From IMG/VR virus record IMGVR_UViG_3300032093_000662, positions 1-28,082 of that record: a DNA stretch of 28,082 nucleotides. The stretch is one strand, 5' to 3'. The notes under the pieces are model-generated. The model made no database searches. It was given only the letters and a program-made list of their open reading frames with translations, and was not told the origin of the DNA. Shown piece after piece: positions 4,411 through 23,545 of this stretch. This DNA is from a virus. Made by a program: the position numbers and the translations under genes. Positions within the stretch are counted from its first letter, which is position 1. Each line of letters starts with the position of its first letter.

Positions 4411-4758
4411 TTATTCGGTTGGAATTACTTGCCAGTTAAGGTCTTCTTCTACCCAACGGTAGAATTGTCCATCTGTAGGCATAGGTGTAGGTGCTTCCCA
4501 GAATGAACCATTGCGTGTCCAAGATGGGTAAGGCTGAGGTGCTACAAAGATATCTTCTTCTGCGTTGTAGTAATACCCAATTCCTGCGTATGTACCACGA
4601 ATGTTGTTGTTGTAACTTGTGCGCTTGCAGACCTGTCCACGAAATTCTCCGTAGTGTGCTTCCCAATCAGAGATGCCGTCTACTACTTCGTCTTCGTTAC
4701 GTCCTACAATTACTTCTGTTACGATATTGTTTTCATCTAGAAATGCGTAATGTGCCAT
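4411..4758 (-). CDS. Small Trp/Tyr-rich virion-associated protein, function unknown
   Basis: A 115-aa protein starting MAHYAFLDENNIVTEV and containing RGTYAGIGYYYN and a C-terminal half rich in aromatic residues (PYPSWTRNGSFWEAPTPMPTD, then YRWVEEDLNW). Proteins of this plan, with the AGIGYxY and PYPSW-like motifs, are common beside tail-fibre genes in marine cyanophages and pelagiphages as I remember them, but have no established function. The position after three glycine-rich adhesin-like genes, with a TAATG overlap at 4758, suggests a fibre accessory: assembly factor, chaperone or small tip protein. This is inference. Confidence 0.6.
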   Translation of the reverse strand: MAHYAFLDENNIVTEVIVGRNEDEVVDGISDWEAHYGEFRGQVCKRTSYNNNIRGTYAGIGYYYNAEEDIFVAPQPYPSWTRNGSFWEAPTPMPTDGQFYRWVEEDLNWQVIPTE

Positions 4759-5699
4759 TAGAATGTCACGCTCCCTGTTCCTGCGGTAAATTTGTAATAT
4801 TTAAACCCGCCTGTTGTGTATTGAGTATAAGTTAAACCACCACCGATAGATGATAAGTTTGGTTTAGTATCTGGATAACGAATCACTATAATACCTGAAC
4901 CACCTGCGCCTCCTCCAGCAGAGCCACCTCCACCTGCTCCACCACCGCCACCGCCTCCAGTGTTTACTGTTCCAGCGATACCTGCAGCCCCATTTGGTGA
5001 AGCAGTTCCGTTTCCTCCACCACCGTTGCCGCCAAGACCTCTAACGCCTCCGCCTGTACCGTAAGCACCACCTCCACCACCACCTGCGTAGTAGTAGTTT
5101 CCAGAAACCAATTGTCCTGTAGAAGTAACGCTTCCCATTGTATTAACAAAAGCAACTATTAATCCACTTATGCCAACACCGCCAGAACCAGAAGTATTAC
5201 CAGACGTGTTGCCACCAACCGCTCCTGCACCACCGCCACCGCCAGTTGGGTATCCTCCTGGCTGTGATGAAGAAGTTCCACCTGAGTTACCATAACCACC
5301 AGTTTGGGTTGACGTTCCAGCAGCAGTTAAATTAAATCCTCCACCACCACCTGAACCGCCATTAAACCCTGCAGGTCCATTTGTTGATGTTGCTCCACCG
5401 CCTTTTGCGGTTAACGAAATACCTGTTCCAGAAATACTTGAATCTACTCCATTTGTTCCATTAGAAGTAGATGGAGAAGTACCACCACCACCAATTGTAA
5501 ATGTATAAGACCCAGGCAAAAATGTATTAGCAGCGCTTGCAATAACTCCACCAGCACCCGCGCCAGCAGCAGTATCCCAACCTGCACCACCGCCACCCGC
5601 AACAATTAATACATCCGTATAAATATAAGGGTCATAATAAGCGTTACCAGCAAGCACACTTCTGCTTTTAGATTTAAGTTTAAGACTAATAACTGCCAT
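4758..5699 (-). CDS. Glycine-rich tail adhesin-like protein, third tandem copy
   Basis: A 313-aa protein. Residues 1-30 form an N-terminal segment (VLAGNAYYDPYIYTDVLIV); residues about 34-268 are dominated by runs of glycine separated by variable Ser/Thr/Asn segments; residues 269-313 form a C-terminal module (GIIVIRYPDTKP, then GGLTYTQYTTGGFKYYKF, ending SVTF). Both end segments match the 296-aa copy. Poly-glycine blocks alternating with variable loops recall the distal adhesin gp38 of phage S16, whose glycine runs pack as polyglycine-II helices and whose loops bind the host; this is a comparison of style, not of sequence. Likely a receptor-binding tip or surface fibre. One-base overlaps at both ends tie it to its neighbours. 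Confidence 0.65.
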   Translation of the reverse strand: MAVISLKLKSKSRSVLAGNAYYDPYIYTDVLIVAGGGGAGWDTAAGAGAGGVIASAANTFLPGSYTFTIGGGGTSPSTSNGTNGVDSSISGTGISLTAKGGGATSTNGPAGFNGGSGGGGGFNLTAAGTSTQTGGYGNSGGTSSSQPGGYPTGGGGGAGAVGGNTSGNTSGSGGVGISGLIVAFVNTMGSVTSTGQLVSGNYYYAGGGGGGAYGTGGGVRGLGGNGGGGNGTASPNGAAGIAGTVNTGGGGGGGAGGGGSAGGGAGGSGIIVIRYPDTKPNLSSIGGGLTYTQYTTGGFKYYKFTAGTGSVTF

Positions 5700-6571
5700 T
5701 AGATTGCATACCTCACTATGACTATTCCTGAACCGCCTGTGCCGCCTGTATTATTTGGAGAGGTAGTAGCACCGCCACCACCGCCACCAGTATTAGTGCT
5801 ACCTGCTGTTCCAGGAGCGCCACCGTTACCGCCGCCGCCTGAGCCACCTGTTCCATAAGTTCCCGAATCAATGCGACCACCACCACCGCCGCCAGCGTAA
5901 AATCCGCTAGCGCCTGTTGATGTTGCAGTTGCCCAAGATGAATAAGTATTTACACCAGCACCGCCGTTACCGCCAGCGCTGATTGCAGCAGCAGCACCAG
6001 CAGCGCCAGCGCCACCACCACCACCTGCTGCTTGACCACCACTACTACTACCAGCACCTGCTCCACCTGCGTTGCCTTGTCCAGATGGACTAGCAGCACC
6101 GCCTGCTGGATTAACTCCTGCTAATTTTCCGCGACCTGAACCACCGCCACCTGAACCGCCATCACCACCAACATCTGCGCGTCCGCCGAAACCGCCGCCT
6201 TTTGAGGTAGTTAATGAACCAAATGTTGAATCAACTCCAATGGTTCCAGCAACTCCAACTCCACCAGCGCCACCAGCACCAATTGTAACTGCATAATTAG
6301 TTTGAGTTAATGATTGTGCGCTGTGAAGAAGTAAACCACCTGCTCCACCGCCTCCGCCAGCATCTCCACCACCACCTCCACCACCTGCAATAACAAGAAT
6401 ATCTGCAGTTAAGTTTCTAAATGGCTTAAATCCAACAGTATCTGTTGCTAAAAATGTGTGGTAAACATAATTTGAATCTTGAGTAATTGTTCCGCCAGTT
6501 GCTTTAATGTAGCGTTTCAAAGAAGAAATTTGTGAAGTTATTGCTTTATTTCTCATAGATGAAATAGCCAT
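5699..6571 (-). CDS. Glycine-rich tail adhesin-like protein, second tandem copy with rearranged end-module
   Basis: A 290-aa protein with a glycine-rich body (about 62-280) ending at SGIVIVRYAI. Unlike its two neighbours it lacks the roughly 45-residue C-terminal module. A similar pattern sits at its N-terminus instead: GGTITQDSNYVYHTF (26-40) followed by VGFKPF, then ADILVIAGGG. The common core, [L/I]VIAGGGGGG at the start and GSGI[IV]xR at the end, shows it is a paralogue of the flanking genes. Likely role is host recognition at the tail tip, inferred from composition, multiplicity and neighbours. It overlaps both neighbouring genes by one base (TAATG). Confidence 0.65.
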   Translation of the reverse strand: MAISSMRNKAITSQISSLKRYIKATGGTITQDSNYVYHTFLATDTVGFKPFRNLTADILVIAGGGGGGGDAGGGGGAGGLLLHSAQSLTQTNYAVTIGAGGAGGVGVAGTIGVDSTFGSLTTSKGGGFGGRADVGGDGGSGGGGSGRGKLAGVNPAGGAASPSGQGNAGGAGAGSSSGGQAAGGGGGAGAAGAAAAISAGGNGGAGVNTYSSWATATSTGASGFYAGGGGGGRIDSGTYGTGGSGGGGNGGAPGTAGSTNTGGGGGGATTSPNNTGGTGGSGIVIVRYAI

Positions 6572-7461
6572 TACTTTGTCACCGTTCCTGTTCCACCTGT
6601 GAATTGATATACACGATAACCTGAACGGGTTGGTTGTGTATATGTTAATCCTGCACCAATATTCGTTAGAGCAGGGTATGTATCTGGATAAGCAATAACA
6701 ATTACCCCAGAACCACCGCTTGCACCTGTGTCAGCGTAACCGCCTCCACCACCGCCTCCGCGATTAGCAGTTCCTGCGGTTGCTGCAACTGTACCGCCAG
6801 CAATTTTCTTTCCATTACCCCCGCCACCAGTACCAACGCCAACATTGTTGTAAGCGCCGCCACCGCCACCTCCAGCGTAAACTATTGTTGACCCTGTGAT
6901 TGAGTTAGATGTGCCATTACCACCGCTACCACCTGTGGCTGTTGTGTCATATGTACCTGTAAAACCTCCACCATTAGATGATGAACCACCACCACCTCCG
7001 CCGCCTTCACCAAATCCTGTGTTGGAGCCGCTTCCACCTGAGTTTCCTTGAGATGGAGATGTGCTTGGAGTATTACCAGCACCACCTGTACCTGCTCCAT
7101 AAGAAGGGGAACCTGAACCAGTCTTAGTACCGCCACCACCGCCAGAACCACCAGCAGTACCGTTCATTGTGGTATTTGAGTAATCACCACCAGCACCACC
7201 ACCCGCAGCAGTAACTGTGTCGAAGACAGAATTAACACCACTTGTGCTACCAGGTTGTCCTGCTCCTACGGTTACAGTAAAAGAATCAGATAAGAAGAAT
7301 GATGAACCAGTTCTATATCCTCCTGCTCCACCTCCACCAAAGGAACCACCACCTGCACCACCTGCAACTACAAGGTAGTCAACAGGAATAGGATTATAAA
7401 AAGCATTGCCTACTAAGAGGCTAATACTGTTTTCGCCAGTCTTAACACTCTTGATTGACAT
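6571..7461 (-). CDS. Glycine-rich tail adhesin-like protein, first tandem copy
   Basis: A 296-aa protein with the same plan as the 313-aa copy: N-terminal ISLLVGNAFYNP, then VDYLVVAGGAGGG, a glycine-rich body (about 34-251) with variable Ser/Thr/Asn loops, then SGVIVIAYPDTYPAL and a terminal GGxTYTQ..SGYxVYxF module ending GTGTVTK. It is the first of three consecutive paralogues after the small 108-aa protein. The low-complexity glycine codons invite recombination between copies. Probable receptor-binding or surface adhesin; this is inferred from the architecture and not shown by any enzymatic motif. Confidence 0.65.
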   Translation of the reverse strand: MSIKSVKTGENSISLLVGNAFYNPIPVDYLVVAGGAGGGSFGGGGAGGYRTGSSFFLSDSFTVTVGAGQPGSTSGVNSVFDTVTAAGGGAGGDYSNTTMNGTAGGSGGGGGTKTGSGSPSYGAGTGGAGNTPSTSPSQGNSGGSGSNTGFGEGGGGGGGSSSNGGGFTGTYDTTATGGSGGNGTSNSITGSTIVYAGGGGGGAYNNVGVGTGGGGNGKKIAGGTVAATAGTANRGGGGGGGYADTGASGGSGVIVIAYPDTYPALTNIGAGLTYTQPTRSGYRVYQFTGGTGTVTK

Positions 7462-7787
7462 TAGACAGAAGCCTCATCACCGTACGCGTGGAATACAAGG
7501 TTAGCAGTTGAAGCGTAAACTGTTACTACATCTGTAGTTGCAAGTGTAAGACCAACAGTAATAACTGTGGTATCTGATGCACCTACTGTGATGTCATAAG
7601 CAAAGTAATGCACGTTTGCTAGTGTTGCTCCCGCAGGGCGGATAGCAATACGAAACGTAGCAGCAGTTGCTGTTAGGTTAGCAATAGAGATGCTTGATAC
7701 TACTGCTTCTTTAGCAGAAGGTACCGTGTAAAGTGTCGTTGCTGTTGTTGCTGATGGGTTTGATTGCCCAAGTACTTTTTTTGCCAT
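7461..7787 (-). CDS. Small beta-rich virion protein (tail/fibre accessory or decoration-like)
   Basis: A 108-aa protein, Thr/Ala/Val-rich with alternating hydrophobic residues throughout (TATAATFRIAIRPAG, DTTVITVGLTL), predicting a compact beta sandwich. It starts MAKKVLGQSNPSATTATTLYTVP, a beginning I recognise from small proteins found beside fibre genes in many environmental phages, sometimes called decoration or minor structural proteins. A good ribosome site (AAGGAG) precedes the ATG, and the stop overlaps the first glycine-rich gene (TAATG at 7461). Co-translation with the adhesin genes suggests it is part of the same fibre or tip assembly. No catalytic motif is visible. Confidence 0.6.
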   Translation of the reverse strand: MAKKVLGQSNPSATTATTLYTVPSAKEAVVSSISIANLTATAATFRIAIRPAGATLANVHYFAYDITVGASDTTVITVGLTLATTDVVTVYASTANLVFHAYGDEASV

Positions 7788-10540: not shown

Positions 10541-11074
10541 TTACTTCTTCTTCTTTGCTTCGCGCTTTGCTTTTAGTCTTGCCTGTAGTGCTGCAATTTC
10601 TCTTTCACGTGCAGGAGTTCTTTCAATTTTGTTTGTTAAACCAGCAAGAGCGCCACCTAGCATTGAGAATCCGCCATACTTAGGCTTTGTCTTAGAAGCG
10701 GCTGCTTTCTTAACTGGAGCCTTTCCTGCGGTTGGCTTGTTAGGAACGAACATAGATCCTACGTACTTACCGCCACCATCTGACTTAGCCTGGCTAGGAT
10801 TACGATATCCTGATGGCTGTCCACCTGCAGGAGCCTTAGATGCTGGCTTATCAGGTACAAACATAGAACCGACATAACGACCAGAAGATGATGGTTTTGT
10901 TGATGCTGTTGCCTTTGCTACGCGAGCATCGCCATACATACGGCGGAGTGCTTCACGATACTCAGGAGAATTATTTGATGATGCTGCCTTGAGGGAGGCA
11001 GACATTCCCTGCTGCTTAATCTTATCAATGGTTGCTTGCGAAACCTTGATGTTTTTGTTTGGCTTAGTTGCCAT
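10541..11074 (-). CDS. Basic head protein with two VGSMFVP tags
   Basis: A 177-aa, Lys/Arg-rich protein. I place the start at ATG 11074, one base after the stop of the preceding gene, not at the in-frame ATG 11110, which lies inside that gene and adds 12 residues. Residues 10-53 form a helical domain (KVSQATIDKIKQQGMSASLK ... RRMYGDARVAKA) homologous to the 107-aa protein. Then come GRYVGSMFVPDKP, GGQPSGYRN, GKYVGSMFVPNKP, a Lys/Ala linker and a C-terminal basic helix (EIAALQARLKAKREAKKKK). The tag also opens the 435-aa internal virion protein. Probably a virion component associated with DNA or the capsid interior, inferred from charge and gene position. No known family recognised. Confidence 0.65.
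   Translation of the reverse strand: MATKPNKNIKVSQATIDKIKQQGMSASLKAASSNNSPEYREALRRMYGDARVAKATASTKPSSSGRYVGSMFVPDKPASKAPAGGQPSGYRNPSQAKSDGGGKYVGSMFVPNKPTAGKAPVKKAAASKTKPKYGGFSMLGGALAGLTNKIERTPAREREIAALQARLKAKREAKKKK
10742..10771 (-). repeat. VGSMFVP tag, copy 4 (177-aa protein)
   Basis: Encodes GKYVGSMFVP, identical in residues to copy 1 in the 435-aa protein some 7 kb away, with several synonymous differences in the DNA. Confidence 0.85.
10853..10882 (-). repeat. VGSMFVP tag, copy 3 (177-aa protein)
   Basis: Encodes GRYVGSMFVP. The following residues, DKP, also resemble the continuation of copy 4 (NKP) and copy 1 (DTP). Confidence 0.85.
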
Positions 11075-11075
11075 G

Positions 11076-11354
11076 TTACCACTTAACCTTATCTGCCCAA
11101 TACGCGGCACTCAATTTTCCTTTAGAAATGTTACTTGCGTGACGAGCCTTAAATGACTTACGTCGCGCTGCATATGATGCCGACTCTCCCTTTTTCTTTG
11201 GAGAGCCACTGACACCCTGTTGACCAAAGCGGATAGTCTTGACCGTCCCACCCACTTTTGCCACAACTACGTGTGACTTCTTTGGATGAGTCGGTGTACG
11301 CTTTGGCTTGTTATAGCCAGATACTCCTACCCGCTTTAGTCTAGGGTCTGTCAT
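11076..11354 (-). CDS. Small basic protein, DUF6321-like
   Basis: A 92-aa protein starting MTDPRLKRVGVSGYNKPKRT, with TKTIRF-like beta segment (KVGGTVKTIRFGQQGVSGSP), then AARRKSFKARHASNISKGKLSAAYWADKVKW. The motif order (SGYNKPKRTP, SHVVVAK, IRFGQQGV, SFKARH, SAAYWADKVKW) matches a small conserved family of aquatic phage proteins that I remember as DUF6321; no profile search was run. Its function is not known. It begins with a TAATG overlap on the 107-aa gene and lies among other basic small proteins after the capsid gene, so a virion or DNA-associated role is possible. Confidence 0.7.
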   Translation of the reverse strand: MTDPRLKRVGVSGYNKPKRTPTHPKKSHVVVAKVGGTVKTIRFGQQGVSGSPKKKGESASYAARRKSFKARHASNISKGKLSAAYWADKVKW

Positions 11355-11677
11355 TACTTAACCTTTGATCCGCGCATTCCTGAGCCGCCAGTAGCCTTCT
11401 TCTTACCTGGAACAAATGTTGATCCTTGGTATGAACCTGGAGCCTGTGTCTTCGCCTTTGTAACACGTGCTGCGCCGTACATGCGCTTTACGCCTTCGAC
11501 GTATGAAGCGCTTGCCTTGCCCATTACGGCTTTCTTGAGAGCGGCTGTCATGCCGTCTGCCTTGATGCGATCAATTGTTGCCTGTGAGACCTTCATTGCT
11601 GGAGCCTTTGGCTTTGACGCTGGTGCTGCATAGTTGCGGTATCCCGAAGGTTGTCCGCTTCCTGTCATTCTTGCCAT
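11354..11677 (-). CDS. Basic head protein with one diverged VGSMFVP tag
   Basis: A 107-aa protein sharing modules with the 177-aa protein two genes downstream, in a different order: SGQPSGYRN at residues 7-15, the helical domain KVSQATIDRIKADGMTAALK ... KRMYGAARVTKA at 29-74, then SYQGSTFVPGKKK at about 81-93, a diverged form of the shared tag, and a basic tail (GSGMRGSKVK). The paralogy of the helical domain is plain from the shared KVSQATID and RMYG.ARV segments. Highly basic overall. No known function; likely a virion-associated protein in the head gene block. Confidence 0.65.
   Translation of the reverse strand: MARMTGSGQPSGYRNYAAPASKPKAPAMKVSQATIDRIKADGMTAALKKAVMGKASASYVEGVKRMYGAARVTKAKTQAPGSYQGSTFVPGKKKATGGSGMRGSKVK
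11405..11440 (-). repeat. VGSMFVP tag, copy 2, diverged (107-aa protein)
   Basis: Encodes PGSYQGSTFVPG, the same frame of Tyr, Gly-Ser, Phe-Val-Pro with three substitutions (K to S, V to Q, M to T). It lies after the helical domain shared with the 177-aa protein. Confidence 0.7.
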
Positions 11678-16403: not shown

Positions 16404-17711
16404 TTACCCCAGTGCATTCTTTAGTGATTGAGCCATATTGACTGCTGTATTAATTGCTGTTGATGTACTATCGTAACGCTTATCGTTCTTAATAATCTTC
16501 TGCATCTCAAACTCGTTTGGCAATCTGTACTCACCACTCTCGTCTTTGAAGTTAAGAACCTGTACTGCAAGAGGATCCTTAATACCGATGTTGGTCTCAA
16601 GGCCGGCCGATAGTGTCTGCAGCACTGGAGCAACATACTTGTTGGCTGTTTCGCCTGGCTTAAGAGAGTTCTTGATAGCCATAAAACGGTTACCAGACTT
16701 GGCTTGAATTTCTGATACGTACTGCTCGTACATTTCGTTCTGGACCTTCTCGTCAGGGTTAGATAGAAGATTCTTAATAAGCGGAGAAACTGTTGCAAAG
16801 TCAGGAGCAACATCATAGTTGCCCGTGTGGTATGCCTTGATTGTATCGTAGATGGTCTTTGCAGAACCACCGATATCATCCACATTCCACTGTTCTTCTG
16901 GGAAGTTTGCTACAAGGAAGTCAGCAAGAAACTCTGTTTGCTCTTCTGCTGTGAATCCTTCACCCTGTGATGTAGATGTTCCAGTTGTTACAGTTTTATA
17001 CTGCTTAACACCATCAACGGTTTTAATGCTAGAAAATTCTTTGTTTCCAAATTTGTCGACCTTCTGCTTCTTGGTCTTAGGGTCAATAACTGGCTTGCTC
17101 TTAGTATCATAGATTGGAGCAAACTCTGTTTTACCAGAAGTAGTTGTAGGTTGATTCTGCTGCTTGACCTGTGCATTCCATGAATCCTGAAACTTCTTAT
17201 CTAGTTCTGGGGCTGGCCACTGACCAAATGCTGTGAAATAAGCATTGTTGTAGTACTGGCGAGCATCGCCAAGATCCTTGAATTGAAGTGCTGTCTGAAT
17301 TTGCTTGGTATATCTTGTAGTTGTATCTGGCTGCTTGGGGCCATCTTTTGGCTTAACAGTACTGTTGTAGGCTTTTAAGAAATCAAGTGGAAGCAACTGG
17401 CTTGATATAGATGCAAGGATAATCTTTTCAATCGCAGAAGATTCATCTACTCCAACTACTCCAACTCCTAGAGGTGTTGTCGACTTACTTAATCCAGACT
17501 TACGAAGCAAGTTTTGCATCTCAACAAAGTCTGTACCCATTGCTTTTTGGACATCCATAAGATATCCTGCTTTTCTTACTGGATCTGTTTCCTGAGCAAA
17601 TAAAACAAAAGGGTCTTTTGAGTCGCTATATATACCAAGGATTCCTGACATTTGCTGTTGGGTAGCAGGTGTATCAGGCACGAACATAGATCCTACATAT
17701 TTTCCTGCCAT
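16404..17711 (-). CDS. Putative internal virion protein with N-terminal VGSMFVP tag (435 aa)
   Basis: A 435-aa protein that begins MAGKYVGSMFVPDTP, placing at its very N-terminus the tag found twice in the 177-aa and once in the 107-aa basic protein. The rest is mainly helical (IEKIILASISSQLLPLDFLK, TALQFKDLGDARQYYNNAYF, EEQTEFLADFLVANFPEEQW), with a hydrophilic linker at about 185-245. The TAATG overlap at 17711 couples it to the 1944-aa gene. An internal virion or ejection protein partnered with its two large neighbours is the best reading, from position and composition. An alternative is a second scaffold-like or portal-associated protein. Confidence 0.55.
   Translation of the reverse strand: MAGKYVGSMFVPDTPATQQQMSGILGIYSDSKDPFVLFAQETDPVRKAGYLMDVQKAMGTDFVEMQNLLRKSGLSKSTTPLGVGVVGVDESSAIEKIILASISSQLLPLDFLKAYNSTVKPKDGPKQPDTTTRYTKQIQTALQFKDLGDARQYYNNAYFTAFGQWPAPELDKKFQDSWNAQVKQQNQPTTTSGKTEFAPIYDTKSKPVIDPKTKKQKVDKFGNKEFSSIKTVDGVKQYKTVTTGTSTSQGEGFTAEEQTEFLADFLVANFPEEQWNVDDIGGSAKTIYDTIKAYHTGNYDVAPDFATVSPLIKNLLSNPDEKVQNEMYEQYVSEIQAKSGNRFMAIKNSLKPGETANKYVAPVLQTLSAGLETNIGIKDPLAVQVLNFKDESGEYRLPNEFEMQKIIKNDKRYDSTSTAINTAVNMAQSLKNALG
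17676..17705 (-). repeat. VGSMFVP tag, copy 1 (N-terminus of 435-aa protein)
   Basis: Encodes GKYVGSMFVP as residues 3-12 of the 435-aa protein. Codons differ from those of the other copies at third positions, so the peptide rather than the DNA looks conserved. Confidence 0.85.
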
Positions 17712-20700
17712 TATTCAGCCTCTCTTAATATACCAGCGAATACACCGTAGTACATACGGGAGAATTCAGGATTGTTAGACATTAATGTTTCCGCTAAGGC
17801 AACAAGTTCATTACGCATAAGTGTTTGAACTCCGCCTTTAGATGATAGTTCTGCATAGTTTGAAACCTTGAAGTCATTAAGAAGTTTTCTAAACTCATCG
17901 AACTGTTTGTAGAATGTGACTGTCTCTTCGTAAACAGAAGATGACTGGAAGATTGGATCTTCAATAGCCCGACCAATTGTTGCTATCTTCTCGTCCTGAA
18001 CACCAGTCACAATTGCATCTACTGGCTTAGCGCCACCAAACTGCTTGTTCAGGATAGCAATTTGCTCGTTGTACCAGAAATCAGTGTAACGACCAGCAAT
18101 CTGCTGTTCAGCAAGTTGGCTCTTAAGCATGGCGTAAACCATACCCTCTGCCTCTTGTGCTATCTCTGCAGTGGACATCTGACGACGAGCACCCATCTTT
18201 TTCTGCCAGTTAGTATACTTCATCGCATACTCTCCGCCAGGGAAGAAGTAAGGAATAATGTCACCAGACGGAGTAGCATACTTGCTTACTGCATCTGGGT
18301 TGTTATTCAAGAATGTCCAAGCATCCGCTGTACCAGAGGTTCCTGGTGTGGTGTTGCTAATAGCAACTAGGATGTTTTTGTGACCAAACTTGTCAGCAAA
18401 TTTAGACGCTGCTGTTCCTTGATCTCCAGGATAACGCTTTTTTAGTTTATCCCAGTGTTCGTAAAGCATTGTCATGGTCATAAAGTTTTGCTTATTGTTA
18501 GGGTTCTTGATGCTTAGTAGAACTTCTTGTATAGGTGTTGCTGGCGAAATGCTTTGGAATATAGCACCAAAGACATTTGCCCACTTAGCCATACCCTCTG
18601 CATCGCTGAATAATTGATTTCTTGCTTCATCACTAGCAAATGGGTTATCCCCATAGTCGCCCGTAGAGGCTAGGTACGAAGCCCAGTCTTTAACTCCACG
18701 CTGTGTGTCTGCATTATCTGCGAAGAAAGCGTTAGTAATTTTCTTTGCCCATGCTGGAAATATAATATCTGTTGCAGTTTTAGGCTCACCAAATGGTGTA
18801 ACAATATCTCTAAGTAAGTCATCTATTGGACCGAATGCTTTGTCTCTTCCACTTAGTGTGTAAGCAGCGACCATAGCAGGTCCCATACCAGGAGATATAG
18901 GGTTAACAGAACCAAATGCAAGGTTCAAAGATTGTACTGGTGAAGTTATCTGTAGAGCATCTTTTGCATTGATGTTTCTACCAGCAAGAGCGCCAATAAA
19001 ACTACCAACAAGAGGCATCTTAAATTTTAGATCATCAGAATTTTCGTCTTTATAAAAGAATCCTTGATTATCATCATAAGTCATGCCAGAAATATCGTAA
19101 ATTACGTTTGAGCCTTCTTTTTTAAGAGAGTCAAACGCTTTGAAAAACTTAATTGTAGGTGCTGGATTAGAGAACATAAGTTCTCCCCACTTGCCAATAG
19201 TGTTGTAGTGAGCCTGAGCAAACGGTGCTACTAAACGTGCTGCGTTAGCCCACTGCTTCTGCTTAGCAGCGTTATAGAACAATCCCTCTACATACTTAGA
19301 TGCTTGCTGTGCTGCAAGAGAATCAACTGTTCTTAGTGTTGCTCCGCCTCTGTGGACGTAAGAAGGATTTTTTAAGCGCTGCTTGAGTGTGCTGTTGATA
19401 ACACGTAGTGGTGCTGGAACTCTACCAATGATTTTCTTTCCACCTTTAGATGTGGGTGCAAAGGCTTTGTTGGCATTGTTACGCAACGTAATCAAATCAT
19501 CAGTGCTGAGCATATCTGCATATGAGGCTACAAAGTCCCAATAACTAGCATCAAACTCAGGTCCGAAGTTAACTTTGCTTTCGACTCTTGCCGCTAGGCC
19601 AAAGAAAGCGTCTGTGAATTTCTTCGCTACTTTAGTAGTACCATCAAAGACTACCTTTTCGTTGTATACACGTACGCGTGAACCTACCATTTGGGCTGGC
19701 TCAAAGATTGCAGCAATTTGCTTTTCAAAGTTCTTTTCTGCGGCAAGAACTTGATCTGTTGTTAAACCCTTTTGAGTATATGGCGTTCTGATAGTAACTA
19801 ACTTACCACCAAATGGAACTTTTACTTCTCCGTCACGCAGGAGGGAAAGAACTAGATCTCTTTGTGATCCTTGACCAGCAAGAAGATCAATCTGCCCAAT
19901 AACTGTGTTAGGTTGCTTTGCGTCAAATAGATACGTAAGAAGATTGTCCTTGTTGATGTTTGACTTCACAACACCAGGACCAGTTTCCTTAAAAGGATTA
20001 ATAAGAAGCAGTTCGTTCATTCCATCATTATCATTGTAGATTGCTGATAGGAACTCTCGCAACTTATTTCCTGGCTCATCAAATGTATCAATGAGATCAT
20101 CAACATATTGAACTTGCGCTTCTGGTGTTCCTGCTTGCATTACGCGAATAACATCTGGAATAAACTTATCTGATGAGAAGTTATTTACTGTCCAAGCAAG
20201 ACCCTGTAGATATTCTTCACTTGTAGAATCTACAACGTTGTATGTTCTAAAGATACTTGTTGCTTTTCTTCCAGGAGCACCGTAGTCTGCAGTAGAGTCT
20301 TTGCCACGACGGGTTAAAGCCTGACGAGCAATGATAGATTCAGAGAACTGGACCTCTGCATCTGTAGACTTAAAGAACTGCCCAAGGGCATTTACCCCAA
20401 GTTTGCTTCTGCTTGATAACGCTCTTTGAGCCCAGTTACCTTCTGGGTTAGCAATCATCATAGAGATAAAGCCAATAGGGTTATTAAATAAACTGTTATG
20501 GCCAGATAAGAACTGGCGCATTTGCATTTCTCCTACGTTACGCATAATGTAGGCAAAACGACCCACCAACTGCGCTGTACGCCAAAGATCTCCTGCTTCT
20601 TCAAGAAGAACTTTAGTTGATCGTGCTGTTCCGTATAGTGGAATGTTAGTCTTAAAATCTATAATAGATTTAGTTACTGCACGTGAATCTGGAAGATTAA

Positions 20701-23545
20701 GTACAGTTTTAACCAACTGGCTCTCAAGCATTCCTTTTGGTAGGCGAACTGTCTTTCCGCCTGCTTCAATAACACCGCCACCACCATTAGCAAGTGCTAA
20801 CTCAAGAGAATAATTTGATAGAACTACATCATCTCTACCAGATACTTTAATACTTTCTTTAAGTTTAGCAAGTCCTTCTGTGACGTCTCCACCAAGCGAA
20901 CCTGCAATTTCATCTAGCAACTTGCCAATACCATTGTGGACGGCAGCAGCACGTTCAGCGTTAGTTTCAGCAGCAAAGATTGCTCTTTGTGTATCAGCAA
21001 TAACTCTGTCTCGTGTTGCCTTGGTAATAATTGCACCAAATCGAGATGCAATATTGATAGAACTCATCCAGTCTTCAATACCAGTATTTAATGATGTAAG
21101 GTCATCTAAATTAAGTGCTGTGGATCGAACATAGAAACGACCAAATGCTCTGTTGATATTTTCCGACATACGGATAGCGTTTAGGTTTACACCTGGAATT
21201 AAACGAGCAACTGGGTTGGCTGCAATTTTAAGCCCAGTTCCAACAGCCTTTTTGACTGCAAGTAAATCCGCACCACTGCTTACTTGGTTAAGTAAGATTC
21301 TGTATACGTCGTCTACTGTTGTAGCCAAAGAAAGTTCTTTGATAACTCTATCGTCTAATTTACGTCTAAATAGGTTACGAAGTTTAACTACGTCTTTTTC
21401 GCCAGCAACAATCTCAGCAACTACCTTAAACTGACGGCCAAGCATGAACTTAATTCCTTCGGTCATGTTTGGTGTATCAAGAACATTACCCATAAAGCCA
21501 TCTGTAAGTCCAGCACTTGCTAGAATAGATTCTTTGTAAACTGACTTCTCTGCAAGTTCTGCTTCTAGTTTAAGTAAGTTTTTAAGACCCTTTGCTTTAG
21601 GATCTGATATCAACTCTCTGAGGATATCTGGATCTCCGTTTGCTTTTTCGCGTAGGAGACTAAACCATTTTTCTTTATCTTCAAGGTCTAGTTGTTTATT
21701 AACTAGGTCATCAAATTCATTCTGACGGACAGCCAGTTCATCCTGAGGCTTCTTAATAGACTGTAGTAGTCTAAGAACATTAGGTCCTAGATTTGTAGGA
21801 TCTGCAAACTCTGATGCTGCGATGCCAATCTCAGCGCGTGTGGCTGCAATTCGTCCCATATTGGTAATTGCAACTCCACCAGTTCCGCCATAGATGGAAC
21901 GGATATTGGTAAAGCCATCAACCTTCCAGATGTCTTCTACAAGTTCTGAGACTTTAGACATTACTGCTGGGTTTTTTAGCGCTGCAATCTCACCAAGAAG
22001 AGCACCAAGACTCTTTCCTGCTGCTAATTCATCGCCAACAACGAACAAAGATCCTGTAAATCCATCAAGTGCTGCTGCTTCGTCACGAAGTCTAGTTGCT
22101 AGTTCGTTATATACTCTAAATTCTGGATCTGCTACGCTCTTGCCTAGTTTATCTAAACGATCTGCTAATTGAGCACGACGAAGACCTTCTGCTGTGCGTG
22201 TTGCTTCATCAGCCTTTGTAAAGTCGTCAGCCAAATCAAGTAATCTTAATTCATCTGCATCGTTTGCAGTAACTGCATATTCATCTAGATAATGCGCTCC
22301 AGCGCTAACCTTACCATACTGTGGAACTTCATCAAGAAGGATATAGCCATCAAAGAATCCACCAGTACTTTTCATATCGGCAGACAATAGAGCCATTGCC
22401 TCGGATAGTTCACCAGTTTGAGTCTTAGGGTTGGTTACAAACCATTCAGAAATGCTTTTATCGGAAAGTGCTTGCTTAGAAACATCGTCTGCTGGATATG
22501 ATGCCCATCGAGCAGCATTAAGTGTTTCAAAGTTTAATAGTTTACGAGCAGTTCTGATTTGCTTGTCGACAATCTGTTTTTCAACAGCAATAATTTCGTC
22601 TTCTTTTTTCTTAACGTCTTTTGCAACACGCTTGTAAGGTGAAGAAATCTTTTTTGTAATCTTGTCTTGTATAATCTTGCCTTCTTTTTCAAGAAGTTCT
22701 ACTGCTTCTTTTTCAAGTTGAGTCATTCCAACTTTGTTGTATTGCATAACATCATTTGCTAATGTGGTTGCTTTCTTGCCCTGTGTAAGAATCTTGCCTA
22801 CAGCGCCAGGTCCAAAATACATAGATGGATCTAATCCTATGTTTAGCGTAGCATCTACAATTCCAGATAAAACTTTGTATGCGTTTTCTTCTGGATTCAT
22901 TCCAATACCATTAAAAATGTGTCGTCCAATGGTGTATGATTCTCCATTAATCTGACCATACTTGCCCATGGCTTTAATCTGTGCTTTTCCAGCACCACTC
23001 TTAGGGCCAACAAAGAAGCCAGAACCTTGATCTGAAAAGTTTCTTATCAAAGACCCAAAAGCAGTTGCTTCGGACCAACCGCCTTCAAGCATTTCTTTTG
23101 ATGAAATGTCCTCACCACGATAAACTGCTAACGCATTTCGTGTTGCAAGTGTTAAAGTATCGTAAGGCAAACGAAGAGTAGCAAAAAGACCACGAGTTAG
23201 ACCCTTAAATGGATCGTAAAGGCCCTCTTTTAATCCAGCCTGGATAGTACCAAGGAATCCGCGATCAGGTTCTACGCTCTTTTTAATTTTATCTACGTTA
23301 AATGCGTCTGTTTTAAGTGCAGCAATACCATCAATGGTTGTGATCTTATTGATACCAGGAGTATCTGCAGTCAATCCCTGACGAACCATAGATACAACTA
23401 GGTCATTACTCAACCCAGGATATTTTTGGGTGATCGAATTAAAATTAGATAGTGCATCTGGAGACAATGAATTCATTGAGTACCGCATCATTGTCTTATA
23501 AGAATTTTTCCTAGCCTCTAGGATGGCGTTTAGATTATCAGCCAT
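17711..23545 (-). CDS. Giant putative internal virion/ejection protein (1944 aa)
   Basis: At 5.8 kb this is the largest gene, about a fifth of the window. The N-terminal 170 residues contain amphipathic stretches (FLGTIQAGLKEGLYDPFKG, GLFATLRLPYDTLTLATRNAL). Lys/Glu-rich coiled coils occur at about residues 273-340 and 594-690. Further on are helical regions, the aromatic segment PFAQAHYNTIGKWGELM near 1440 and VNPISPGMGPAMVAAY near 1543. There is no tape-measure-like repetition, and I find neither a lytic transglycosylase pattern nor T7/N4-type RNA polymerase motifs. Proteins this size between portal and capsid genes are usually injected with the DNA (compare T7 gp16 in role, not sequence). 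The overlaps TAATG at both ends indicate stoichiometric coupling. Function unproven. Confidence 0.6.
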   Translation of the reverse strand: MADNLNAILEARKNSYKTMMRYSMNSLSPDALSNFNSITQKYPGLSNDLVVSMVRQGLTADTPGINKITTIDGIAALKTDAFNVDKIKKSVEPDRGFLGTIQAGLKEGLYDPFKGLTRGLFATLRLPYDTLTLATRNALAVYRGEDISSKEMLEGGWSEATAFGSLIRNFSDQGSGFFVGPKSGAGKAQIKAMGKYGQINGESYTIGRHIFNGIGMNPEENAYKVLSGIVDATLNIGLDPSMYFGPGAVGKILTQGKKATTLANDVMQYNKVGMTQLEKEAVELLEKEGKIIQDKITKKISSPYKRVAKDVKKKEDEIIAVEKQIVDKQIRTARKLLNFETLNAARWASYPADDVSKQALSDKSISEWFVTNPKTQTGELSEAMALLSADMKSTGGFFDGYILLDEVPQYGKVSAGAHYLDEYAVTANDADELRLLDLADDFTKADEATRTAEGLRRAQLADRLDKLGKSVADPEFRVYNELATRLRDEAAALDGFTGSLFVVGDELAAGKSLGALLGEIAALKNPAVMSKVSELVEDIWKVDGFTNIRSIYGGTGGVAITNMGRIAATRAEIGIAASEFADPTNLGPNVLRLLQSIKKPQDELAVRQNEFDDLVNKQLDLEDKEKWFSLLREKANGDPDILRELISDPKAKGLKNLLKLEAELAEKSVYKESILASAGLTDGFMGNVLDTPNMTEGIKFMLGRQFKVVAEIVAGEKDVVKLRNLFRRKLDDRVIKELSLATTVDDVYRILLNQVSSGADLLAVKKAVGTGLKIAANPVARLIPGVNLNAIRMSENINRAFGRFYVRSTALNLDDLTSLNTGIEDWMSSINIASRFGAIITKATRDRVIADTQRAIFAAETNAERAAAVHNGIGKLLDEIAGSLGGDVTEGLAKLKESIKVSGRDDVVLSNYSLELALANGGGGVIEAGGKTVRLPKGMLESQLVKTVLNLPDSRAVTKSIIDFKTNIPLYGTARSTKVLLEEAGDLWRTAQLVGRFAYIMRNVGEMQMRQFLSGHNSLFNNPIGFISMMIANPEGNWAQRALSSRSKLGVNALGQFFKSTDAEVQFSESIIARQALTRRGKDSTADYGAPGRKATSIFRTYNVVDSTSEEYLQGLAWTVNNFSSDKFIPDVIRVMQAGTPEAQVQYVDDLIDTFDEPGNKLREFLSAIYNDNDGMNELLLINPFKETGPGVVKSNINKDNLLTYLFDAKQPNTVIGQIDLLAGQGSQRDLVLSLLRDGEVKVPFGGKLVTIRTPYTQKGLTTDQVLAAEKNFEKQIAAIFEPAQMVGSRVRVYNEKVVFDGTTKVAKKFTDAFFGLAARVESKVNFGPEFDASYWDFVASYADMLSTDDLITLRNNANKAFAPTSKGGKKIIGRVPAPLRVINSTLKQRLKNPSYVHRGGATLRTVDSLAAQQASKYVEGLFYNAAKQKQWANAARLVAPFAQAHYNTIGKWGELMFSNPAPTIKFFKAFDSLKKEGSNVIYDISGMTYDDNQGFFYKDENSDDLKFKMPLVGSFIGALAGRNINAKDALQITSPVQSLNLAFGSVNPISPGMGPAMVAAYTLSGRDKAFGPIDDLLRDIVTPFGEPKTATDIIFPAWAKKITNAFFADNADTQRGVKDWASYLASTGDYGDNPFASDEARNQLFSDAEGMAKWANVFGAIFQSISPATPIQEVLLSIKNPNNKQNFMTMTMLYEHWDKLKKRYPGDQGTAASKFADKFGHKNILVAISNTTPGTSGTADAWTFLNNNPDAVSKYATPSGDIIPYFFPGGEYAMKYTNWQKKMGARRQMSTAEIAQEAEGMVYAMLKSQLAEQQIAGRYTDFWYNEQIAILNKQFGGAKPVDAIVTGVQDEKIATIGRAIEDPIFQSSSVYEETVTFYKQFDEFRKLLNDFKVSNYAELSSKGGVQTLMRNELVALAETLMSNNPEFSRMYYGVFAGILREAE

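Follow-up and report, generated by a model that had tools for sequence, protein, structure and literature searches.

Our analysis makes it likely that three neighbouring glycine-rich genes of a phage form a three-slot array of receptor-binding tips, whose TNF-like, polyglycine-bearing domain is circularly permuted between two forms and exchanged as cassettes. The genes lie in a window of 28,082 nucleotides, i.e. the whole stretch of DNA analysed here (IMG/VR virus record IMGVR_UViG_3300032093_000662, positions 1 to 28,082). In one form the PF21722 glycine-rich core precedes a small module (core-then-module, KM) and in the other it follows the module (module-then-core, MK); this two-state architecture is recurrent among relatives, and is not an accident of local duplication. 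Glycine-rich tail proteins are a known kind, while the pair of permuted allelic architectures with its precise cassette seams is apparently undescribed; a search of a library of open-access papers found no combination of circular permutation with phage glycine-rich tips. The glycine-rich family is widespread in environmental phages, where it probably serves host binding, and family matches catch the cores only. The two orders, which are interchangeable and confine the module to a single end, give a simple rule by which such proteins can be annotated and split, and provide a natural example of circular permutations that alternate as alleles of one gene slot.

Three tandem genes and their surroundings

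The array comprises three adjacent open reading frames, all on the minus strand and transcribed from position 7461 towards 4758, which are joined to each other and to both flanking genes by TAATG overlaps of 1 nt. All three copies match phrog_2295, and each contains a PF21722 core above the curated cut-off of 24.3 bits. The features are as follows, with leader identities given at the nucleotide level against the loci L042 and L028 of related phages.

7461..7787, minus: upstream conserved gene, 108 aa, marking the array in relatives; weak tail-fibre PHROG match (E 6e-6)
6571..7461, minus: copy 1, KM glycine-rich protein, 296 aa, slot P1; PF21722 33.7 bits, phrog_2295 E 2.4e-36
7402..7461, minus: copy 1 constant leader, 20 codons, slot-1 specific; 94-96% identical to slot 1 of L042 and L028, 33-59% to leaders of other slots; seam at about nt 60
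6691..7383, minus: copy 1 glycine-rich core (VDYLVVAGG...GSGVIVIAY); PF21722 match, residues 27-258
6574..6657, minus: copy 1 C-terminal module (GAGLTYTQ...GTGTVTK); C-module HMM
5699..6571, minus: copy 2, MK glycine-rich protein, 290 aa, slot P2; PF21722 49.6 bits
6512..6571, minus: copy 2 constant leader, 20 codons, slot-2 specific; 69-76% identical to slot 2 of L042 and L028, 33-46% to other slots
6419..6496, minus: copy 2 N-terminal module GGTITQDSNYVYHTFLATDTVGFKPFR; N-module HMM E 9e-11 (the HMM includes copy 2 itself)
5708..6406, minus: copy 2 glycine-rich core (ADILVIAGG...GSGIVIVRY); PF21722 match, residues 55-288, colinear with KM cores
4758..5699, minus: copy 3, KM glycine-rich protein, 313 aa, slot P3; PF21722 57.6 bits
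5640..5699, minus: copy 3 constant leader, 20 codons, slot-3 specific; 80-83% identical to slot 3 of L042 and L028, 44-52% to other slots
4875..5618, minus: copy 3 glycine-rich core; most closely related to an MK protein's core
4761..4844, minus: copy 3 C-terminal module (GGGLTYTQ...GTGSVTF); C-module HMM
4411..4758, minus: downstream conserved gene, 115 aa, phrog_7759, of unknown function; TAATG overlap with copy 3

The two outer copies, 1 and 3, are KM proteins. Copy 1 runs from the N-terminus MSIKSVKTGENSISLLVGNAFYNP to the C-terminus GAGLTYTQPTRSGYRVYQFTGGTGTVTK, and copy 3 from MAVISLKLKSKSRSVLAGNAYYDP to GGGLTYTQYTTGGFKYYKFTAGTGSVTF; when aligned, their C-terminal ends are 64% identical and comprise, beyond the final strand of the core, a module of 28 residues. 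The middle copy is an MK protein, which ends at GGSGIVIVRYAI and carries GGTITQDSNYVYHTFLATDTVGF directly ahead of its first core strand. The first-pass annotation of this DNA, which described three tandem glycine-rich paralogues, a C-terminal module common to the outer two, and a middle copy that lacks it at its end but shows a similar pattern near its N-terminus, is thereby confirmed. The pattern lies beyond chance, since all three copies pass the PF21722 cut-off and the alternation between N- and C-terminal modules recurs in hundreds of relatives.

The window also includes terminase, portal and capsid genes. A 658-aa gene downstream of the array (phrog_11667) has distant relatives, at about 35%, in Streptomyces phages, and this sequence relationship suggests actinobacterial hosts. 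Several further minus-strand products were noted. A motif resembling (K/R)YVGSMFVP(D/N)KP recurs in 10541-11110 (twice), in 11354-11677 (in the looser form SYQGSTFVPGKK) and at the extreme N-terminus of the 435-aa product of 16404-17711; a KVSQATID.I...M.A.L-like block is common to the products of 10541-11110 and 11354-11677. Separating the portal side from the capsid genes is the gene for a 1944-aa protein without a PHROG match (17711-23545). The 80-aa protein of 482-724 matches a PHROG named nuclease (E 1.5e-23), a possible mislabel, as its hydrophobic make-up looks more holin- or membrane-like. The 450-aa protein of 894-2246, which has no PHROG match, features a signal-peptide-like hydrophobic N-terminus, long Val/Thr/Ser and then Pro/Glu-rich repeats, and an Ala-rich C-terminus.

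One module at either end of the core

Pairwise, the N-terminal module of copy 2 has no significant similarity to the C-terminal modules of copies 1 and 3, and an HMM of the C-terminal tails scores copy 2's own module at E=0.8. The window copies alone therefore cannot establish module homology by pairwise comparison, so relatives were gathered for a family-level test, from viral contigs plus four from bacterial genome assemblies. A profile built solely from C-terminal modules was run against module-first proteins, unrelated open reading frames and shuffled-head decoys. It matched N-located modules at E 2.3e-7 to 2e-3, with the earliest false match at 0.54, and one of the N-modules that it found is written in the same GGTLTTDGGYHYRTF style as that of copy 2. 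A strict N-module profile likewise detects the inner C-modules of two-core proteins, and the comparison of the N and C module profiles outscores 200/200 column shuffles. Given that a C-only profile finds N-terminal modules, these profile matches indicate that the modules at the two ends are homologous at the level of the family. The cores of the two forms are colinear (238 aligned columns, E 5.9e-45), with the modules at opposite ends, i.e. the same elements occur in rotated order. A rotated whole-profile test gave a modest result, at 310 versus 289 for the core only, with shuffled modules reaching a mean of 296 (SD 4.1, maximum 313.6).

AlphaFold2 models of both forms are consistent with this arrangement. 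In copy 2 (pLDDT 93.2, pTM 0.89) the predicted module strands 28-31, 35-40 and 44-50 precede a core that extends from strand 54-61 to strand 283-289, and in copy 3 (pLDDT 85.1, pTM 0.84) a core from strand 26-33 to strand 270-276 precedes the module strands 290-296, 299-306 and 308-312. Circular permutation, which the first-pass annotation had raised, is supported by homologous modules on opposite ends of colinear cores, by three module strands in both models, and by the mutual exclusion of the two ends among relatives. The 290 complete single-core proteins divide into 195 KM, 70 MK and 25 without a called module, with none carrying both, against 47 expected if the ends were independent; these calls hinge on HMM thresholds. 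On visual inspection, the majority of the 25 without a called module seem to have half an N-side module (a shortened strand pair), and two a degenerate C-module.

Complete two-core proteins possess two modules in 11/13 cases (KMMK in seven, KMKM in four). The KMMK order, found in L004, L006, L007, L029 and L293, corresponds to a KM domain joined back to back with an MK domain. The two exceptions that break the pattern of two modules per two cores are L109:3717-4859 (KK) and L195:4317-6038 (KKM). The latter has the appearance of slots 2 and 3 run together in a single open reading frame, because in L197 the same leader and the same slot-3 body belong to separate genes. A start-truncated MKM protein in L279 may be the remnant of a KMKM protein.

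Predicted fold and proposed role

Structural searches pointed to similarities with phage tail proteins. Foldseek matched copy 2 to the Pam3 tail fibre at E 3.6e-5 (TM 0.37-0.42) and copy 3 at E 0.096, a difference in favour of the MK form that is expected from a sequential aligner if copy 3 is rotated; the quality of the two models also differs. The tail tip chains Qa/Qb of Bxb1 (PDB 9d93) were matched at E about 1e-4 by both forms, at a sequence identity of about 20%, and many of the neighbours in BFVD are viral proteins named glycine-rich domain-containing, in line with the PF21722 (Gly_rich_2) and phrog_2295 assignments. PF21722 matches cover the core only, such that the module and its alternative end fall outside. 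Sequence searches of solved structures gave weak or composition matches only (Pam3 at E 0.012 with the KM profile), and when copies 2 and 3 were searched against phage records nothing matched, probably owing to low-complexity masking of the query.

Pam3 has a trimeric fibre in which a TNF-like sandwich is combined with a distal domain rich in glycine; the variable tip of this domain has been proposed as the host-binding part (PMC9608196). The proposed likeness of the window proteins to the fibre protein gp24 (PDB 7ypx, 7yfw; PMC9608196) would lie in the TNF-like sandwich with distal glycine-rich loops. In Pam3, however, the shaft is helical and gp25 acts as a dedicated chaperone, whereas the window proteins have a 20-residue leader and occur as up to three paralogues; the neighbour at 4411-4758, considered as a candidate for a Tfa- or gp25-like chaperone, matches phrog_7759 of unknown function and gave no Tfa match. 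In the gp38 proteins of Salmonella phage S16 and the T2 type (PGII sandwich), a polyglycine lattice presents hypervariable receptor loops (PMC12892980). The window proteins would resemble these in the lattice with variable loops, but gp38 contains a beta-helix domain and is mounted on gp37, and it was found neither by sequence in PHROG, Pfam or PDB nor among the Foldseek matches listed. The TNF-like glycine-rich domain of ALK/LTK represents a related fold idea with a weaker Foldseek match (E 0.015); it belongs to an animal receptor, for which no sequence match to the window proteins was found. PADLOC gave no match indicative of a defence function.

We propose that each protein consists of a slot-specific constant leader of about 20 residues and one domain, in which a polyglycine core with beta strands on either side (TNF-like, cf. 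Pam3 gp24) would combine with one small three-stranded module. The module is predicted to complete the proximal sandwich from either chain end, after the core in KM and before it in MK, so that the two forms would be circular permutations with the module in the same three-dimensional place. The short leaders may dock each protein in its own position, presumably at a trimeric tail tip, and the variable distal glycine-rich loops would contact the host receptor. The resemblance of the models to the tail fibre of Pam3 and to the tail tip of Bxb1, together with the neighbouring genes, suggests that the proteins are most likely phage receptor-binding tips, as the first-pass annotation had anticipated.

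The permutation might itself be functional: moving the joint that links leader and fold from module to core could alter the presentation of the tip or stop co-expressed paralogues from forming heterotrimers, with MK and KM alleles exchanged under selection at a locus made for swapping and the leaders doubling as recombination linkers. We regard this extension as tentative and somewhat doubtful. It is unlikely that the genes instead encode glycine-rich virion decoration or assembly proteins that vary for some other cause. The matching PHROG is of unknown function, which would suit such a reading; but the genes adjoin tail-fibre-like genes, the fold resembles two tail proteins, and the bodies vary strongly beside constant leaders, all of which argue against it.

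Slots, leaders and seams among related phages

To place the array in its family context, 70 loci with the upstream gene and downstream sequence were compared. Array genes, between one and three, follow the upstream gene in 48 of them, and the other 22 show none within the available downstream stretch. Their combinations include KM/KM, MK/KM, KM/MK/KM (as in the window) and MK/MK/MK, among others. Copy number and order differ between related phages, and both forms were found in every slot. The variable size of related arrays, with one, two or three copies, speaks against an obligatory heterotrimer of the three copies. Each slot has its own leader of about 20 codons, irrespective of the type of body that follows: leader identity in slot 1 is 0.68 within KM and 0.70 between types, in slot 2 the values are 0.80 and 0.75, and between different slots the mean is 0.52. 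MK proteins occupy 7/35 of the first slots, 6/33 of the second and 2/10 of the third. With this share at about 20% in each slot (~18-22%), we reject the idea that the middle slot is special.

The boundaries between leader and body were examined in KM/MK pairs whose leaders share 90% identity or more, with counts that refer to pairs and not to independent events. Upstream DNA homology stops at nt 54-75 in 56/57 pairs, and downstream homology restarts exactly at the stop codon in 40/54. KM/KM pairs have their median seams at nt 126 on the upstream side and, on the downstream side, 136 bases ahead of the stop, which indicates that exchange between KM proteins concerns mainly the core. The closest bodies occur in other slots as well as in the same slot. 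Seams at such fixed points suggest exchange rather than targeted mutagenesis of the kind directed by a diversity-generating retroelement, and strongly bear out the earlier expectation that such proteins recombine easily. A swap of KM for MK would replace the gene from about codon 20 through the stop codon, and one of KM for KM usually mainly the core between conserved strands; leader DNA and the stop/start junctions may serve as linkers for homologous recombination between phages. The fixed seams (around codon 20 and at the stop codon) mark natural cut and join points of these proteins, and so allow host-range evolution to be followed in uncultured phages one body at a time.

A tree of the cores alone indicates how the two forms are related. 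The KM/MK label changes at least 12 times on it, compared with 33 times for shuffled labels, on a tree with many weak branches; at least three of the changes are forced by starred branches, and we thus reject a single origin of KM. Within a starred branch, the core of copy 3, a KM protein, is closest to that of the MK protein L120 (66% over 218 columns of the tree alignment), and their local alignment runs from the first to the last core strand, exactly the core edges. For the core of copy 2, copies 1 and 3 are more distant than are the MK proteins of other phages. The label changes and the placement of copy 3 next to an MK core suggest that permutation, or core transfer between frames, probably occurred more than once.

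These data also bear on whether the fold is permuted at all. The C-terminal module could be an independent add-on of one subfamily, serving trimerization or docking, to which the N-terminal strands of the other are merely similar. The weak resemblance, in direct comparison, between the module of copy 2 and the modules of the two outer copies would fit this, as would the tendency of KM-KM exchanges to retain the C-module while the core is swapped. We nonetheless judge it improbable, as the HMM of C-terminal tails also picks up N-located modules, with E values as low as 2e-7, none of the 290 single-core proteins has both modules, the KMMK and KMKM proteins keep two modules for two cores, and KM and MK cores interleave on the tree. 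Least credible, and rejected here, is a local unequal duplication that shifted gene boundaries in a module-core-module-core array and left one odd copy, a possibility that the first-pass annotation had also entertained: three neighbouring paralogues with TAATG overlaps would suit it, but two modules lie between cores 1 and 2 and none between cores 2 and 3, an order (core-M / M-core / core-M) that cannot arise by sliding the gene ends along a tandem array of modules and cores, MK proteins occupy all three slots of other phages with matching leaders, and copy 2 has its nearest core relatives elsewhere. Circular permutation with cassette exchange accordingly remains our preferred reading of the array. 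In one related locus (L212:3698-4831), the upstream 108-aa gene is in frame with a slot-1 body 99% identical to that of L167, an apparent fusion or sequencing error.
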